28,494 nucleotides of DNA from a virus, in IMG/VR virus record IMGVR_UViG_3300048587_001125, positions 1 to 28,494 of that record. One strand, 5' to 3'. The translations under genes were made by a program, and so were the position numbers. Of this stretch, positions 17,125-24,654 are shown in pieces (position 1 is the stretch's first letter; each line of letters starts with the position of its first letter). The notes under the pieces are model-generated. The model did no database searches. It worked only from the letters and a program-made list of their open reading frames with translations, and was not told where the DNA came from.

Positions 17125-17427
17125 TCAGATCCGCGAGAGACGCGCGCGGCGTTCGGAGCCATCGCCGACCGACCGCAGATCGCGCACCTGGAAGGCGATG
17201 CCGTCGATCACGACACCATCGCGCACAGCGATGCCGACGAACGCCGAGGTCGGAAACGTCATCTCGAAGTCGGTGCCGAGCGCGAGGCCGTCGAGCATCG
17301 TCGTGTCCGGCGCCGAGAAGCCCACCGGACGACTCTGCGGGGCGCTGCCGTCGGCTGGTTGCCAGACAGCCGTCTTGAGCAGCCCCGCGCGCGCAGCGGC
17401 GGCGAAGATCTGTTCGACGAAGCCCAT
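17125..17427 (-). CDS. gpFII-like head-tail joining protein
   Basis: The 100-residue product starts at ATG 17427, which overlaps the capsid gene stop (TGATG). Its end, RDLRSVGDGSERRARLSRI, fits the conserved C-terminus of the lambda FII head-tail attachment family, and it has the right size (lambda FII is 117 residues) and position (after the capsid, before the terminator gene). The N-terminal MGFVEQIFAAAARAGLLKTA is helical; the remainder is beta-rich. An in-frame extension upstream of 17427 lies inside the capsid gene and is not supported. It would complete the portal neck to accept a tail. Confidence 0.65.
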   Translation of the reverse strand: MGFVEQIFAAAARAGLLKTAVWQPADGSAPQSRPVGFSAPDTTMLDGLALGTDFEMTFPTSAFVGIAVRDGVVIDGIAFQVRDLRSVGDGSERRARLSRI

Positions 17428-18431
17428 CAGAGCGTCAGCTTGACCAGCACGCCCGGGCGGTGACACATCGGCAGCGGGTTCGACTGCGTGTGCAGATCGG
17501 TACCGCGGTCGAACTTGCGCGGCTCCTGCTTGGCGTAAAGCGGCTGACCCAGCGTGTTGACGGTCTCGTTGAAGTCCGCCGGCGCGAAGTACGTGCCGAA
17601 GGTGTCGAGCGTGCCGAGCGGGAACGCATGCGCTTCGCCGGCCGCGATGAAGCGACGCGCGTCGCCAGTCTCCGGATCATTGGCCTGGCCGCGGTACTCC
17701 TCGAAGGTGATGCCGCCGAAGGTGAAGCCGCGGCGCACGTCGTTGATCAGGATCGCGCCGTTCTGCCAGTTCTCGAAGGCCTTCTCGACATTCCCGTGGC
17801 TGGTCAGTGTGGTGAAGAACTCCGGCGAGCACAGGCAGTGAACGCCGTTCATGTACTCGCCCTTGAGCCCTTCCTCGATGGCGGCCAGGGTGGCGATGCA
17901 CTTCGGCTTGACCTTGGTGTTGGCGTTGCCGAGGTCGAAGGCGATGGTCTTGGGCGCGATCTTGAATTCGGCGAACAGGTCGTAGAGCACCGAGCCATCG
18001 GCATCGAGGATCACGCCCTTGAGGGCGCCCATGCGCAGATGCTCCAGGGTGATCGCGTGCTTGTTGCGCATGGTGTCGAGGTGTCGCGCGATGACGCCGG
18101 CCAGGGTCTCGGCTTCGGTCTCCGAGCCGAACGCGCGCAATCCCTGGACTTCGTCCGGGAGCACCACGTCGTCGTGTGGGATGTGCGGCACGACGAAGGA
18201 GCGCAGCGTGCGCTTGCCGCGGATGCCAACCGTGCCCGGCGAGCCGGGCGGCTGGGTTGGCAGCAGGTTCAGCACGCCGTTGCGTTCTTCGACCAGGATC
18301 TGGCGCTGACGCACCGGCTTGGCCGGCATCAGGTTCAGCTGCTCGAGGCGGCCGTAGCGGTTGGGCAGCAGGTTGATGGCCGCCGTCAGCGAGGCCATCG
18401 AGAACGCGGGATTGGCGAAGGGATTGTTCAT
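17427..18431 (-). CDS. Major capsid protein, lambda gpE family
   Basis: The 334-residue product has the lambda E-family arrangement: an N-terminal MNNPFANPAFSMASLTAAIN and LPNRYGRLEQLNLMPAKPV, a middle MRNKHAITLEHLRMGALKG with DADGSVLYDLFAEFKI, and a C-terminal part with SPEFFTTLTSHGNVEKAFEN, FTFGGITFEEYRG and AHAFPLGTLDTFGTYFAPAD. Length is close to lambda gpE (341 residues). It lies directly after the decoration protein gene, as in lambda. It forms the HK97-fold icosahedral shell with the decoration protein stabilising it. Confidence 0.96.
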   Translation of the reverse strand: MNNPFANPAFSMASLTAAINLLPNRYGRLEQLNLMPAKPVRQRQILVEERNGVLNLLPTQPPGSPGTVGIRGKRTLRSFVVPHIPHDDVVLPDEVQGLRAFGSETEAETLAGVIARHLDTMRNKHAITLEHLRMGALKGVILDADGSVLYDLFAEFKIAPKTIAFDLGNANTKVKPKCIATLAAIEEGLKGEYMNGVHCLCSPEFFTTLTSHGNVEKAFENWQNGAILINDVRRGFTFGGITFEEYRGQANDPETGDARRFIAAGEAHAFPLGTLDTFGTYFAPADFNETVNTLGQPLYAKQEPRKFDRGTDLHTQSNPLPMCHRPGVLVKLTL

Positions 18432-18434
18432 GGC

Positions 18435-18812
18435 TCAGGCTCCGTGGCGAACGAGCACGCCGAGCGCCTTCAGCTGCGCGAGCGCAGTCAGGGTTTCGGC
18501 AGCGGTGATGCCTTCGGGCCACTGCAGCGCGTGCTGGGCGACGATGGCGTGGCGCGCGACGATCAAGGCGTCGTCGCGGTCGATGAGGGTGGCGTCGCAG
18601 GCCTGCAGCAGGACACCGGCGGCGACTTGGCGGCCATCGGTCGCGGACGGATCGATGCGCGCGTACTGGCCGGTCGCGGTCACCAAGCCTACGACCGCGC
18701 CGAGCGGCAGGCTCTGGCCGGCACCGACGGTGACGCGGTCACGCGAGTAGAAGTGCGGCGCCTCGTACTTGAGCAGGTCGCCGAGGTTCATCGATTCGAT
18801 CATCTCGGCCAT
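18435..18812 (-). CDS. Head decoration protein, lambda gpD family
   Basis: The 125-residue product contains the gpD pattern: an N-terminal disordered part, SRDRVTVGAGQSLPLGAVVG, GQYARIDPSATDGRQVAAGV, and DRDDALIVARHAIVAQHALQ, followed by a helical C-terminus. In lambda this protein binds three-fold axes of the expanded head. It is slightly longer than gpD (110 residues). The start at 18812 follows the protease stop by one base. Confidence 0.9.
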   Translation of the reverse strand: MAEMIESMNLGDLLKYEAPHFYSRDRVTVGAGQSLPLGAVVGLVTATGQYARIDPSATDGRQVAAGVLLQACDATLIDRDDALIVARHAIVAQHALQWPEGITAAETLTALAQLKALGVLVRHGA

Positions 18813-18813
18813 G

Positions 18814-19158
18814 TCAGTGACCTCCGGTGGTGGCGTTCGCGGTCGCGGCGAGCTTGCGGGCGGCGTCGATCAGCGGATTGCTGGCCGTTGCGCTCGGCGC
18901 CTGCGCGTCAGGCGCGATGCGACTGCTGATCTCAGGGCTGTCCTCTGCGAGAGCAGCGAGCAGATGCCGGCGCACGGCGTCCGGTGCGGTTTGGGTTTCG
19001 AGGAAGCCGGCGATCAGCTGAGGGCGGCCCGCCAGCGTGCAGATCTGGGCGATCTCCAGCGATTCGGCGAGGCCGTAGGCACTGGCCGACACGGCCGGCG
19101 CAGGTGGGGTGGCGCTGTCCGCCAGGGCGGCGGCAACGGGTTCGGTTTCGGTGGACAT
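18814..19158 (-). CDS. Scaffold protein from an internal start in the protease gene (Nu3-like)
   Basis: An internal ATG at 19158 (residue 296 of the protease, in frame) is preceded by GGAG at a 6-base spacing, far better than expected by chance inside a coding region. It would give a 114-residue product starting MSTETEPVAAALADSATPP, an Ala/Pro-rich then helical, acidic sequence of the kind used for scaffolds, ending in KLAATANATTGGH. Lambda makes Nu3 from the 3' end of gene C in exactly this way. The protein would guide capsid assembly and be removed by the protease. This is an inference from start-site context. Confidence 0.7.
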   Translation of the reverse strand: MSTETEPVAAALADSATPPAPAVSASAYGLAESLEIAQICTLAGRPQLIAGFLETQTAPDAVRRHLLAALAEDSPEISSRIAPDAQAPSATASNPLIDAARKLAATANATTGGH

Positions 19159-20043
19159 GGACGACTCCAGCAGTGCGGAACGAGTGAGGCCCGGCGCACG
19201 CATGGCGGGCGTCGGGAGGGACAGCGAAGCGGTCAGTTGCGCGAGCGCTTCATCGAAGCTGCCGACGGCGTCGGCGAGGCCCGCCGATACCGCGTCGGCG
19301 CCGAAGAACAGGCCGGCCTCCCAGGCGCGCACCTGGTCGGCGGTGAGGCCGCGATGCATCGCCACGGTCTCGACAAACAGGCCGAACACCCGCTCGACCT
19401 CTCGGGTCAGGACGGCCTGCGCCTCGTCGGAGATCGGCTCGTGGGGCGACAAGTCGTTCTTGCGCGCCCCAGCAAAGATCGGGGTGTAGCGAACGCCCTC
19501 CTTGGCATCCTTGGCCGAGTGATCGGCATGCAGGGCGATGACACCGACCGAGCCGACGCCGCCGGTGCGCGCGACGAACACGCGGTCGGCCGCCGAGGCG
19601 AGTGCATAGGCGGCGGAGAAGGCTTGGTCATTGGCGACGGCCCACACGGGCTTGACCCGCGTCGCGGCGCGCACGCGGTCGGCGAGATCGAAGACACCAC
19701 CGGATTCACCACCGGGAGAGTCGACATCGAGCAGGATCGCGCGCACCTGCGGATTGGCGAGCGCGGCGTCCAGTTGATCGGCGAGCGCGAGGTAACTGGC
19801 CAGTCCCGAACTCGCTTCCAGGCCGACCGTGCGCCGCACCAGCGTGCCGTGGATCGGGATCACCGCAATGTGCGGCGGATGCGCGCCATGGACGCGCGTT
19901 GGCGGCGCTGAGGGCAGCGGCGCGTCGTGGTCGGTGACGCCGATGCGCGCACCAAGGACCGAGACGATGACGTCGAGCTTGGGGCGATGGATGGCCAGAG
20001 GCACGCCGAAGAGGCGCGCCGCCAGGTGGGGAAGCACGGTCAT
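18814..20043 (-). CDS. Head maturation protease, S49 family, lambda gpC-like
   Basis: The 409-residue product has an S49 (SppA/SohB-type) peptidase domain: IPIHGTLVRR, RAILLDVDSPGGESGG, the nucleophile Ser143 in DQAFSAAYALASAADRV, and the probable general base Lys195 in AGARKNDLSP. The 52-residue Ser-Lys spacing matches the bacterial SppA dyad. From about residue 270 to the end lies a low-complexity Ala/Pro/Ser-rich region that serves as scaffold, as in lambda C/Nu3, and that probably includes a separately started protein from 19158. The protease would process scaffold and portal in the procapsid. It is flanked by portal and decoration genes. Confidence 0.93.
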   Translation of the reverse strand: MTVLPHLAARLFGVPLAIHRPKLDVIVSVLGARIGVTDHDAPLPSAPPTRVHGAHPPHIAVIPIHGTLVRRTVGLEASSGLASYLALADQLDAALANPQVRAILLDVDSPGGESGGVFDLADRVRAATRVKPVWAVANDQAFSAAYALASAADRVFVARTGGVGSVGVIALHADHSAKDAKEGVRYTPIFAGARKNDLSPHEPISDEAQAVLTREVERVFGLFVETVAMHRGLTADQVRAWEAGLFFGADAVSAGLADAVGSFDEALAQLTASLSLPTPAMRAPGLTRSALLESSMSTETEPVAAALADSATPPAPAVSASAYGLAESLEIAQICTLAGRPQLIAGFLETQTAPDAVRRHLLAALAEDSPEISSRIAPDAQAPSATASNPLIDAARKLAATANATTGGH

Positions 20044-20063
20044 GGGATTCCTTGCGTGGTGAA

Positions 20064-21557
20064 TCAGGCGTCGTCGTCGTCGGGCGACGAGGCCGGTCGC
20101 GGCGGGGTGCTGCCGCCGTCCTTGGAGGTGCGGCGCGGATCGGAATCGAAGATCAGGCCGAGGTCATCGGCGCGCTGGTTGTCGGCAGCGATCTCGCGGT
20201 CGATGTCCTCGGCGTCGTAACCGTTCGCCGAGATGGCCTCGGACCGGCTCATGAGGCCGGAGCGGATCGCGAGCAGCATCGCTTTGTATTCCTTCTCGGG
20301 ATCGACCCACTGCCAGCCCTGCGGAATCCACTTCACTTGCAGGTAGTGGCGCCGCCGCGCCGGGCCGCCGTGTGCGAATCCGGGCGCCACGAGCGCGCCG
20401 GACAGCACGGCTTGCTTCATCCATGCGGCCCAGATGGGACGGCACAGCTGATGGACCAGCACGGCGTGCTGGACCATCTCGCAGCGGCGTCGAAACTCCA
20501 GCAGGCCCGCGCGGATCGAGGAGTAGTTCACGCCAGTGAGGTCACCGGTCAGCTGCTCGTAGGTGATGCCGATCGCCGCGGCAACCGCCCGAAACTGCGT
20601 GCGCAGGAACTCCGAGTAGGCGCTGCCCACATCGGCCGGATCGGAGAACTTGATGTCCTCGCCGGGCTCCAGGATCTGCAGCGTGCCAGGCTCCAGGCTC
20701 GCCACCGAGATGCCCTCGGCATCCGGCGCACCTTCGCCCATCAGCGAGTCCTCGGGATTCTGGCGGGTTACGAAGCCTGCAAACATCGCCGCGGTCTTCT
20801 TGCGCACCAGTTCGGCATCGTCGTACTGATCGAGCTCGTTGAGTTTGACCAGCGCACGCGACAGCCAGGGCTCGCCACGAATCTGACCCGGGCGCAGCAC
20901 GCGATACAGGTGGGCGATCTCGCGGGCATCGACGCGCACGGTGTCGAGACCGCCTTGGCCGGACATCGGCGCGAGGCGCCCGTCCTCGGGATGCGCGCGG
21001 TAGAGGTGGTAGGCGACGCGCCGGCCGAGCCCATCGAACTCGATGCCGGCGCGCACGACGTTGCCGTTCGCCAGATCGGTGTTGAGGTGCATCGGCAGGT
21101 GCTCGGGTTCGAGCAGCTGGATCTGCAGCGGCACCGCCAGACCATCTTCCGGACGGCGCGGACGCAGCCGGATCAAGCATTCGCCGCCTTCGAGCATGGC
21201 GCGGCAGGCGAGTGCCTGCAGGCCATAGAAGTCGGTCTGGCCCGCGGCGTCGGCGTCGTCCGTCCAGTCGCGCCACAGGGATTGGACGTCGGCACGGAAG
21301 CGCTCATCGGGCGAGAGGCTCTGCGGTTTGATGCCGGTGCCAACGGCATTGGCGACAAATGCCTCCAGTGCGGCCTGCGCCCAGGCATTGCGGCGGACCA
21401 GGTCGCGGCTCTTGATGCGCAGATCGACGCCGGTCGCGAGCATCGCGGCCACGGCGCCCGGATTGCCGGGCATCCATGCCAGCGAGCGGCGGCCACGACC
21501 CGCGGCCTCGTGCACCGGGCTGCCGAAGAAGCTGCGCAGTTTTCCGAACCAGGACAT
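20064..21557 (-). CDS. Portal protein, lambda gpB family
   Basis: The 497-residue product starts MSWFGKLRSFFGSPVHEAAG at ATG 21557, one base after the gpW stop; the longer open frame upstream overlaps gpW and lacks composition for coding. Family markers include VGTGIKPQSLSPDERFRADV, GGECLIRLRPRRPEDGLAVP and GITYEQLTGDLTGVNYSSIR followed by RAGLLEFRRRCEM, a signature of lambda-type portals. It ends in an acidic SSPDDDDA. It forms the dodecameric portal ring at one vertex and is the docking site of the terminase. Position between gpW and protease is as in lambda. Confidence 0.96.
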   Translation of the reverse strand: MSWFGKLRSFFGSPVHEAAGRGRRSLAWMPGNPGAVAAMLATGVDLRIKSRDLVRRNAWAQAALEAFVANAVGTGIKPQSLSPDERFRADVQSLWRDWTDDADAAGQTDFYGLQALACRAMLEGGECLIRLRPRRPEDGLAVPLQIQLLEPEHLPMHLNTDLANGNVVRAGIEFDGLGRRVAYHLYRAHPEDGRLAPMSGQGGLDTVRVDAREIAHLYRVLRPGQIRGEPWLSRALVKLNELDQYDDAELVRKKTAAMFAGFVTRQNPEDSLMGEGAPDAEGISVASLEPGTLQILEPGEDIKFSDPADVGSAYSEFLRTQFRAVAAAIGITYEQLTGDLTGVNYSSIRAGLLEFRRRCEMVQHAVLVHQLCRPIWAAWMKQAVLSGALVAPGFAHGGPARRRHYLQVKWIPQGWQWVDPEKEYKAMLLAIRSGLMSRSEAISANGYDAEDIDREIAADNQRADDLGLIFDSDPRRTSKDGGSTPPRPASSPDDDDA

Positions 21558-21558
21558 C

Positions 21559-21780
21559 TCAGAAGCCCTTGCGGGTCGTGACCCGGATCTGGCGCGGCGC
21601 ACCGGGCCATAGACCGGTGCTGGCCGCCTGTTCGGCGACGCCGCGCTTGACCTCGTGGATCGCCGCGAGGAGTTCATCAACCGAGCGGTACTCGACCGTG
21701 TTGCCGCCGAAGGTGACACGGCGCTCGCCCTTGGCCAGCGCAGCCTCCAGAGCCTCGAGGTGATCGGAGGTGAAGGCCAT
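21559..21780 (-). CDS. gpW-family head-tail joining protein
   Basis: The 73-residue product (MAFTSDHLEALEAALAKGER, then RVTFGGNTVEYRSVDELLAA) matches the gpW family in length (lambda W is 68 residues), in the helix-hairpin-helix pattern and in position upstream of the portal. The ATG at 21780 overlaps the previous stop. It would seal the portal after DNA packaging. The C-terminal RQIRVTTRKGF is the usual basic end. Confidence 0.92.
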   Translation of the reverse strand: MAFTSDHLEALEAALAKGERRVTFGGNTVEYRSVDELLAAIHEVKRGVAEQAASTGLWPGAPRQIRVTTRKGF

Positions 21781-22172
21781 CAGCGGTACACCACGACGTT
21801 GATCTCGGCCGAGTCGGTGAAGGTCGAGGCGGCGGTCGCGCAGCTGACGTCGACGAAGCGTGCGGTCTTGAGATCGTCCTCGGCGCGCACGACGGCAAAG
21901 CGTTGCTGCCCGCGATCCACCGAACTGCGTGCCAGTGCCGTCCAGCAGTAGTGGCTATCCGGCAGCCGCGTGGTGAAGTGGATGCGGTAGCGCCCGGCCG
22001 CGAGGCGGTCGACCGCCAACACCTGGTGCGCCGCGCGGATGACGACCTCGCCATCGATCACGCCAAAGCACACCCACGCCCGCGCCACACCCGGATGCGT
22101 GGCGTCGATCTTCGACGCCAGCACCCGACCGATGCGAATAGCGAGATCAGCGATGCGGTCGACCAGCGCCAT
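21780..22172 (-). CDS. Fibre-like protein with knob domain in the packaging module
   Basis: The 130-residue product starts MALVDRIADLAIRIGRVLAS at ATG 22172, one base after the previous stop; an in-frame extension to 22280 lies inside the neighbour and is rejected. The rest (VARAWVCFGVIDGEVVIRAA, then AAGRYRIHFTTRLPDSHYCW, ending STFTDSAEINVVVYR) follows the ARAWVNF ... GxYxVxFxTxMPDxxY ... VNVxVYR pattern common at the C-terminus of phage fibre proteins. It lies between terminase and gpW, where lambda has nothing, so a head or neck fibre is more likely than a tail fibre. It shares its N-terminal helix with the preceding gene product. Confidence 0.75.
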   Translation of the reverse strand: MALVDRIADLAIRIGRVLASKIDATHPGVARAWVCFGVIDGEVVIRAAHQVLAVDRLAAGRYRIHFTTRLPDSHYCWTALARSSVDRGQQRFAVVRAEDDLKTARFVDVSCATAASTFTDSAEINVVVYR

Positions 22173-22173
22173 G

Positions 22174-22665
22174 TCAGGCCAGCGCCGCCTCGAACACGGC
22201 GCTGAAGTCGGTCTCGGGATCGCCGACATCGCTGCTGGCGATTGCGCCGATGTTGCTGCGCACCTGCGACTGCTCCTCACTGGTCAACGCCTGCGCCGCG
22301 TCGAAGCGGACGCGGTTGTTGACCGCCGCCAGCAGCGCATCGAGACCGGTGCTGCCCGAGGTCAGCAGCTCCTGGATCTCCAGCAGCGTGTCGTAGGCGG
22401 CGTCGGCCCCGCCGAGGATCTCGGCCTTCAGGGTGTCGAGCAGATCGACGATCTTGCTCGACGAGTAGGTCGTGCTGGTCGAGACCTGGCCATCGTCGAT
22501 GCCGCTGGTGGCGGTGACGGCGTCCTTGAGCTCATTGATCGCGGCGACGAGGTTGGACTTGTCGGTGGTGGCCAGCTGGGCCAGGTTGCCGGTCTTCGCG
22601 CGCACGTCGATGAACTCCTGCGCGACGCGGATGACCAGACTTTCGATACGGGAAGCCAGACTCAT
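22174..22665 (-). CDS. Putative head-fibre or fibre-base protein
   Basis: The 163-residue product starts MSLASRIESLVIRVAQEFID and contains GNLAQLATTDKSNLVAAINE, a repeat unit frequent in phage fibre shafts, followed by a helical part (SSSKIVDLLDTLKAEILGGA, AYDTLLEIQELL) and ALTSEEQSQVRSNIGA near the end, another fibre hallmark. A strong AAGGAG ribosome-binding site precedes the ATG. The N-terminal ~18 residues resemble those of the next gene product, suggesting a common anchoring or trimerisation helix. It may form the shaft to which the knob protein attaches, or both may bind the same capsid site. Function is inferred from patterns and location. Confidence 0.7.
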   Translation of the reverse strand: MSLASRIESLVIRVAQEFIDVRAKTGNLAQLATTDKSNLVAAINELKDAVTATSGIDDGQVSTSTTYSSSKIVDLLDTLKAEILGGADAAYDTLLEIQELLTSGSTGLDALLAAVNNRVRFDAAQALTSEEQSQVRSNIGAIASSDVGDPETDFSAVFEAALA

Positions 22666-22695: not shown

Positions 22696-24654
22696 TTACG
22701 ACAGCCATCGGCTTTTGACGACGCGCCGCCGGATGGGCGCGCCCGGGTGGGCCTGGCCACCACGCGGGGTGGTCGGGTCGTGGGTCGGTAGTGCGAGGGC
22801 GGGCTCGGGCGCGCGTTCGACGCCGAGAGAGCGTTCCAGCTCGCGCCAGTGGCGTTCCTCAAAGCGGTCGAGGCCTGCGGCGGCCGCAGCGGCGCGGGCG
22901 TAGATGTAGCAATCGAGCGCTTCGTTGCGCTCGCGCACCTTCTGCCACTCACGTACCGGAAATCCGTTGCGGTCGCGGCGCGTGATCAGCTGCTCGGCGC
23001 ACAACTGCTGCACGAACTCGGCATCGATCTGCGGCAGGTGCACGAAGCCGGACGGAAACGTCAGGCTCACGTCGTCGTCGCCGACCGTCGCGCTCTTGCG
23101 CAGGTTGTTGTAAAGCTCGAGCTTGGCGATCCCGACCGCGACGGAGAACACCTTGATGCCGCGGCGCAGGCGCTTGCCATCACGCGAGACATCGACCGCA
23201 GTCGGCGTGCCGATCAGGGCGGCGCCACGTGCAGCGCCCTTGACGGCCATCACGCGCGCATCGCGGCAGGCACGCACGAAGGCATAAGCCTCCTGCGTGG
23301 CGAAACCGGTGTCGAGCGCGAAGCGCACCAGCGGCATCAGCGCACCGGAGGCGTGGGTCCAGTGCTCATCAAGCAACGCCGATAGCGCCCGCCACACGCC
23401 CTCGCGTGCGGTGTCGCCCATCAGCACTCGATGCTCGACCAGCCAGGACTCCTTGCCGCGGCCGAAGGCCCAGATCGAGACTTCGATGCGGTCCTTCTGC
23501 ACGTCCGCGCCGCCGACCAGCAGCAGGCCACCGAGCGGCACGGTGCCGATGCGGTAGTCCTCGCGACGTTCGACCAGACGCTGCCAATCCGGCGCTTCGC
23601 CTTCTTCGACCCAGGTCTCGCCGAGCTCGGTGTTTTTGAAGGTCTTGATCGCCGAGGCCGATCCGGACTCCTTGTTGACCGCAGCCTCCCAGGCCGCGGC
23701 GATATCGCGCCAGGCACGCCAGCCCACCGGGCTGTAGAGCGAGGACAAGTGGAAGCCTGCGGTCTTGCCGACGACATCAACGGTCGCGCGCCATTCGCCG
23801 TGTTCGAGCATCCAGGTCTTGTGGTGCTCGGCAATCGCGGTGTCGCAGGCCTCGCAGATGTAGGCGGCCGTCTCCGGCGCGCCCTTGTCCCAGCGCAGCT
23901 GCTCGAAGCGTAGCCATTGCCGGTGCGCGCAATGTGGGCACGGCATAAAGTACCGACGCTGGTCGCTGGCCTCGTACTCGCGCTCGATGGCCGAGGCGCC
24001 GGCAATCGTCGGCGTCGAGACGATGAAAATCTTGCGCCGTGCAAAGGTGCGCGTGCGCGCCTCGGCGAGCGAGATCGCATCGCCTTCGCCCTCGACGTCG
24101 AGCGGGTAGCCATCGACCTCGTCCAGAAACAGGTAGCGCACCGGCATCGAGCGCAGACCGACCGCGCTGTTGGCGCCGGTCATCACCAGCACGCCGCCGC
24201 GGAACTCCTTGGCCAGGATCGTGTTGCCCGAATCGCGCGAGCGCGCCGGCGCGATCAGTTCCGCCAGGACGCCTGACTCCTCGATCAGCGGGTCGATGCG
24301 CTGTTTGGAGTTGCGCTTGGCCATCTCGACGGTCGGCCAGACCGCCATCATCGGACCGGGCGCGTGGTGGATCACGTAACCGATCCAGTTCGAACCCATC
24401 TCGGTGGCGCCGAGCTGCGCCGCCTTCATGAACACCACGCGCTCGACCGGCGAGGTCGGCGACAGGCAGTCCATGATGGCTTTGAGGTACGGCGTGCGGC
24501 TGGTCCGCCAGCGCCCGGGCTCGGCCGAGGCCTTGCTCGACAGCATCCGGTGCCGATCCGACCACTCCGAGACGGTCAATAGCGGGTCGGGGAGCAAGCC
24601 CTCGCGCCAGGCGCGTTCGAGCTCGGCGGCGCCCTCGTAGATCGCGTCGATCAT
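22696..24654 (-). CDS. Terminase large subunit, lambda gpA family
   Basis: The 652-residue product is the packaging ATPase/nuclease. It has LTVSEWSDRHRMLSSKASAE (a gpA-family entry motif), a Walker A-like MKAAQLGATEMGSN near residues 76-89, Walker B YLFLDEVD near 174-181, and STPTIAGASAIEREYEAS as the coupling region. A zinc-ribbon-like CPHC ... CEAC pair lies at about 239-270. The nuclease domain starts near residue 380 with GGADVQKDRIEVSIWAFG, Asp384 being a likely metal ligand. The ATG at 24654 overlaps the small-subunit stop (ATGA). It cuts concatemeric DNA at cos and drives it through the portal. Confidence 0.97.
   Translation of the reverse strand: MIDAIYEGAAELERAWREGLLPDPLLTVSEWSDRHRMLSSKASAEPGRWRTSRTPYLKAIMDCLSPTSPVERVVFMKAAQLGATEMGSNWIGYVIHHAPGPMMAVWPTVEMAKRNSKQRIDPLIEESGVLAELIAPARSRDSGNTILAKEFRGGVLVMTGANSAVGLRSMPVRYLFLDEVDGYPLDVEGEGDAISLAEARTRTFARRKIFIVSTPTIAGASAIEREYEASDQRRYFMPCPHCAHRQWLRFEQLRWDKGAPETAAYICEACDTAIAEHHKTWMLEHGEWRATVDVVGKTAGFHLSSLYSPVGWRAWRDIAAAWEAAVNKESGSASAIKTFKNTELGETWVEEGEAPDWQRLVERREDYRIGTVPLGGLLLVGGADVQKDRIEVSIWAFGRGKESWLVEHRVLMGDTAREGVWRALSALLDEHWTHASGALMPLVRFALDTGFATQEAYAFVRACRDARVMAVKGAARGAALIGTPTAVDVSRDGKRLRRGIKVFSVAVGIAKLELYNNLRKSATVGDDDVSLTFPSGFVHLPQIDAEFVQQLCAEQLITRRDRNGFPVREWQKVRERNEALDCYIYARAAAAAAGLDRFEERHWRELERSLGVERAPEPALALPTHDPTTPRGGQAHPGAPIRRRVVKSRWLS

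Follow-up and report, generated by a model that had tools for sequence, protein, structure and literature searches.

A fibre-type gene pair inside a lambda-type head module and a candidate hook-and-helix joint between its products

Two fibre-type genes between terminase and gpW

The viral record IMGVR_UViG_3300048587_001125 of IMG/VR, analysed here over positions 1 to 28,494 (28,494 nucleotides, hereafter the window), carries on its minus strand two adjacent genes, A (22174..22665, 163 residues) and B (21780..22172, 130 residues), which profile matches and AlphaFold2 models assign to a fibre-shaft type (PHROG 4757) and a fibre-tip type (PHROG 11355), respectively. The pair lies between terminase and gpW, where the first-pass annotation had placed it: upstream is the terminase large subunit TerL of the gpA family (22696..24654, minus; Pfam GpA_ATPase, E 9e-103) and downstream a gpW-type head-tail joining protein (21559..21780, minus; PHROG head-tail adaptor Ad1, E 4e-24; NCBIfam phage_HTJ, E 1.7e-20), followed by the portal, an S49 protease, a gpD-type decoration protein and a gpE-type major capsid protein (17427..21557, minus). 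Headed by the terminase small subunit, this minus-strand module keeps the lambda-type succession of gpA, gpW, portal, S49 protease, D and E, except that A and B separate gpA from gpW. The genes are tightly packed, with one base between A and B and a one-base overlap of the B stop and the gpW start.

The TerL-A-B-gpW order is widely repeated among prophages of Beta- and Gammaproteobacteria. A helix-bearing B directly follows A in 78 of 80 related IMG/VR loci, and a gpW-type gene was recognised next after B in 72 of the 80. Bacterial genomes, mostly of Beta- and Gammaproteobacteria, supplied 80 more loci, the closest being from a Lysobacterales metagenome-assembled genome and from Aquimonas voraii, whose isolate DSM 16957 carries a related prophage (L245); TerL stands directly upstream of A in 69 of the 75 bacterial-genome loci where A was found.

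Residues 1-162 of A matched PHROG 4757, a family of unknown function (E 1.7e-58; profile positions 9-184 of 359), which was counted as a full-length match. The AlphaFold2 monomer is extended and mostly helical, of low confidence (mean predicted local distance difference test score, pLDDT, 67), with helices at residues 3-25, 39-52 and 69-102, followed by a short one (154-162). The first of these (22591..22659, minus), delineated by AlphaFold2 and motif scans, is heptad-like and common to B. The last lies within a C-terminal peptide, residues 153-163 (DFSAVFEAALA; 22177..22209, minus), that we call the hook. A PDB search with the single sequence of A gave no match; the A family matched, over its shaft segment and at E 6.5e-6, the solved structure of Bxb1 gp4, which is deposited under the name 'tail collar fibers'. 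Neither A nor B found a family in Pfam or NCBIfam, and weak FliX matches in the family search were discarded as coiled-coil noise.

B matched the tail fiber family PHROG 11355 over its full length (residues 1-130, E 6.4e-44); neither PHROG records a mechanism, a partner or a location. Its monomer model (mean pLDDT 87) consists of a helix at residues 3-19 (22116..22166, minus), the proposed partner of the A hook, and a beta domain from residue 32. This beta knob (residues 32-130; 21783..22079, minus) resembled by Foldseek many predicted phage tail-fibre tips in BFVD (best E 5.8e-11; 67 at E ≤0.001, several of them named tail fibres), and more weakly the phiAB6 tailspike in the PDB (E 0.02, probability 1.00) and R-pyocin fibres. 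Sequence matches of B in the PDB to a short-chain dehydrogenase and an acetyltransferase were taken as chance. Family, shaft and fold matches together bear out the fibre-type identity of both proteins; of the earlier division into a fibre shaft and a fibre knob, the shaft-like part applies to A alone and the knob of B is a beta domain.

Both proteins fit exactly the N-terminal motif M-[SA]-L-x-x-R-I-x-x-L-x-I-R-[IV] that had been noticed in them. Within the window alone the resemblance is modest, with 6 identities over the 21 positions of residues 2-22, a value reached by 1.6% of shuffles; the shared helix is secured by its conservation in the related loci. Scanning the window in all six frames located the helix pattern at the starts of A and B only, and the hook at the end of A only. 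Over all loci, the generic helix pattern was found 386 times on the coding strand against a background of 2 on the opposite strand, and the hook pattern 291 times against 25.

Hooks, helices and base proteins in other phages

In the A homologues examined from phages of Sinorhizobium, Rhodococcus, Gordonia, Pseudomonas, Caulobacter and Rhizobium, the C-terminal peptide is conserved, a short protein just upstream of A has a comparable C-terminus (for example DLSLLFENALI), and the protein just downstream begins with an A-type helix, whatever comes after it. The layout of the parsed loci is a base protein with a hook, then A with both helix and hook, then a tip with a helix. The last two elements are present in the window; the base protein is not found directly upstream of A, where TerL lies instead, with a different ending. 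While A forms a single sequence cluster, the B tails of 63 loci fall into 26 unrelated clusters of 59-802 residues. Collagen-like G-x-y motifs are present in 34 of 55 hook-ending base proteins compared with none of 67 A tails and one of 67 B tails, which fits a trimeric fibre.

Some loci depart from this layout or extend it. In locus L112, the base protein upstream of A apparently has two segments resembling a hook towards its end. L001, L095, L097 and L098 encode, ahead of the base protein, a protein of about 100-130 residues that looks similarly beta-rich and may be a further member of the cassette. A pattern scan of the initial locus set found no natural A-B fusions. In Thermomonas sp. S9 (L287), A and B lie in one open frame with the joint ...FEGGAALMSLAARIAAL..., which may be a natural fusion or an assembly indel.

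Matching types of hook and helix

Hooks and helices fall into two main types. Type I combines a helix like LATRIGTEFK with a hook like DFVAxFEAAL, and type II a helix like LAQAIGADIK with a hook like DFVADYTTAK or DPLAYYILAK, so that the positive charge is on the helix in type I and on the hook in type II. Pairing was analysed in 64 non-redundant loci (<80% A identity), 52 of which have a base hook. At neither joint does any locus combine a K or R at position +4 of the hook with an R in the partner helix (two-by-two counts of +4 K/R against helix R: base hook and A helix, [[30,0],[1,21]]; A hook and B helix, [[33,0],[10,21]]). Within type I, an acidic residue at hook +1 pairs with the helix R in direct pairs (p 7e-4), an association absent in the two cross pairs tested. 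Hook +3 and helix position 8 are also associated in direct pairs (p 0.0017 and 1.6e-5). Ten loci have A and B helices that disagree at position 8; the A hook there goes with the B helix in eight cases and with the A helix in two. The tests count each locus as an independent observation, and the hook pattern and positions were chosen after the sequences had been viewed, so the p-values are descriptive. As read from these sequences, type matching is good but not secure evidence that hook and helix touch.

Proposed serial assembly, its alternatives and known fibres

We give an even chance to serial assembly of A and B into a slender virion fibre, probably a trimer, with A as its shaft and B as its exchangeable tip. 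The N-terminal helix of A would anchor such a fibre on the virion, the middle of A would form its shaft, the C-terminal hook of A would pack against the N-terminal helices of B, and the B knob would make contact with the host or the environment, possibly as a receptor-binding part. In other phages the hook-and-helix joint would occur a second time, between A and the hook of the short, often collagen-like base protein. In the lambda-type group, A probably docks on another part of the virion, because the base is missing and the A helix has drifted to a distinct form, SLVIRVAQEF; the head or neck is a possible dock because A sits between gpA and gpW. A wider proposition, that a general plug-and-socket code of C-terminal hook and next protein's N-terminal helix joins fibre segments one after another, following the gene order, in unrelated tailed phages and builds head or neck fibres in this lambda-type group, seems to us rather unlikely as a whole.

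Several observations count against serial assembly as proposed here. A fold search with the low-confidence model of A returned no structural match. In the window and in near-complete contigs of its relatives, the search for hooks gave that of A and, besides it, two unconvincing pattern matches, so that A in the lambda-type group has no recognised base hook to dock on. The association of hook +3 with helix position 8 extends to cross pairs (p 0.0015 and 0.02), and no more than one or two independent switches of type find support on a tree of A bodies, the pairing being not significant after correction for descent; with so few switches, the tree-based independent-pairs test has no power. As to where the fibre would be carried, the neighbours of the cassette outside the lambda-type group include both head and tail genes, and neighbour tallies do not single out the head.

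Location is where the strongest alternative arises, namely that the cassette builds a tail fibre, or a tail-tip or collar accessory, of which only the genes lie among head genes. This alternative, which is compatible with serial linkage, we rate a little below even. It agrees with the tail fiber label of B in PHROGs, with the frequency of B-type knobs on tail fibres, with the proximity of the cassette to tail genes in other phages, and with the solved Bxb1 gp4, a tail collar fibre with a shaft like that of A whose gene also precedes the terminase gene. Two placements argue against it: in the lambda-type group TerL and gpW flank the cassette, which in the window is well away from the tail genes, and in the Caulobacter phage CcrSC it comes just after the capsid genes. 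The earlier suggestion of head or neck rather than tail fibres is consistent with gene position in the lambda-type group, where TerL stands upstream of A in most loci, but in other phages head and tail genes alike adjoin the cassette. From gene order we infer that a head or neck location is the candidate for this group, an assignment tempered by Bxb1 gp4 and by the mixed neighbours elsewhere. We know of no fibres on the head or neck of lambda itself.

A second alternative, which we hold to be doubtful though by no means negligible, accepts the type matching but attributes it to shared descent of the cassette instead of contact. In that case the hook might be a tail serving as a chaperone or for trimerisation, with the helix a coiled coil of generic type. 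The few independent switches on the tree of A bodies speak for it. Against it, most comparisons show a stronger association for direct than for cross pairs, the discordant loci favour the B helix, and the distribution of hook and helix among base, A and B is asymmetric. That A and B, forming alternative or mixed fibres, use their common helix to dock in parallel on one site is improbable and the same docking site proposed in the first-pass annotation probably wrong: although the helix is common to both proteins and the A and B helices are more alike within a locus than across loci, elsewhere A is framed by base proteins with a hook and no helix and by tips with a helix and no hook, the A helix has diverged in the lambda-type group whereas the B helix is still of the general form in most relatives, and the A hook follows the B helix and not its own in most discordant loci. 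The hook of A, the hook-bearing base proteins upstream of it in other phages and the matching of hook and helix types favour serial linkage over a shared docking site.

The closest published concept is that of anchor-branched receptor-binding proteins, described for G7C, K1-5 and Klebsiella phages (PMC6872550). There, tips are exchangeable and a second fibre protein is believed to bind, by a conserved short peptide at its N-terminus, to a T4gp10-like domain of the first. The A/B cassette is alike in having a conserved N-terminal helix ahead of the 26 unrelated tail clusters, by which B may dock. It differs in its putative socket, a C-terminal hook helix instead of a T4gp10-like domain, and neither Pfam nor PDB searches matched that branching domain in A. 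The gp8.5 protein of phi29 is a slender, partly helical fibre protein associated with the head, with an N-terminal beta-tulip base that binds the capsid (PMC7602432); A begins instead with a helix in its low-confidence model, and PDB sequence searches gave no match of A to gp8.5. The likeness to Bxb1 gp4 (PDB 9d93, 'Tail collar fibers') centres on a shaft segment around a DTL-E motif, and unlike the A/B cassette, gp3, gp4 and gp5 of Bxb1 are without helix and hook.

Head-borne fibres have been seen in phiCbK, as a head filament, and in phage 7-7-1, as capsid fibres, their proteins remaining unidentified (PMC3556154, PMC12796354). The cassette is absent from the phage 7-7-1 genome, from the 25-60 kb stretch of phiCbK and from Bxb1, and it is therefore not a general explanation of those filaments. 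Relatives of phiCbK of the CcrSC type do carry it next to capsid genes, unlike the phiCbK stretch examined; in the Caulobacter phages CcrSC (L094, 7995-8917) and BL57 (L095) it stands just after them. The building blocks of the cassette are known, ordinary fibre modules, while the linkage rule appears undescribed in the open-licence literature searched.

Elsewhere in the window, the plus strand between 25224 and 27593 holds six copies of a 47-base element with the core GCTTGGCTTC-N6-GAACAGCGCGTTCAT, each before a small gene and spaced 272-698 bases apart. Read on the minus strand, the element gives ATGAACGCGCTGTTC, the start of several short open reading frames.

If serial linkage by hook and helix is true, a dozen residues at each end of a protein would show which hypothetical proteins form one fibre, in which order, and which of them is the tip, and this would apply to many phages whose proteins are now annotated as unknown or simply as tail fiber. 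What accessory head or neck fibres consist of, a point still at issue for phages with visible capsid fibres, would become directly testable, and the exchange of tips in phage evolution would follow a simple rule.
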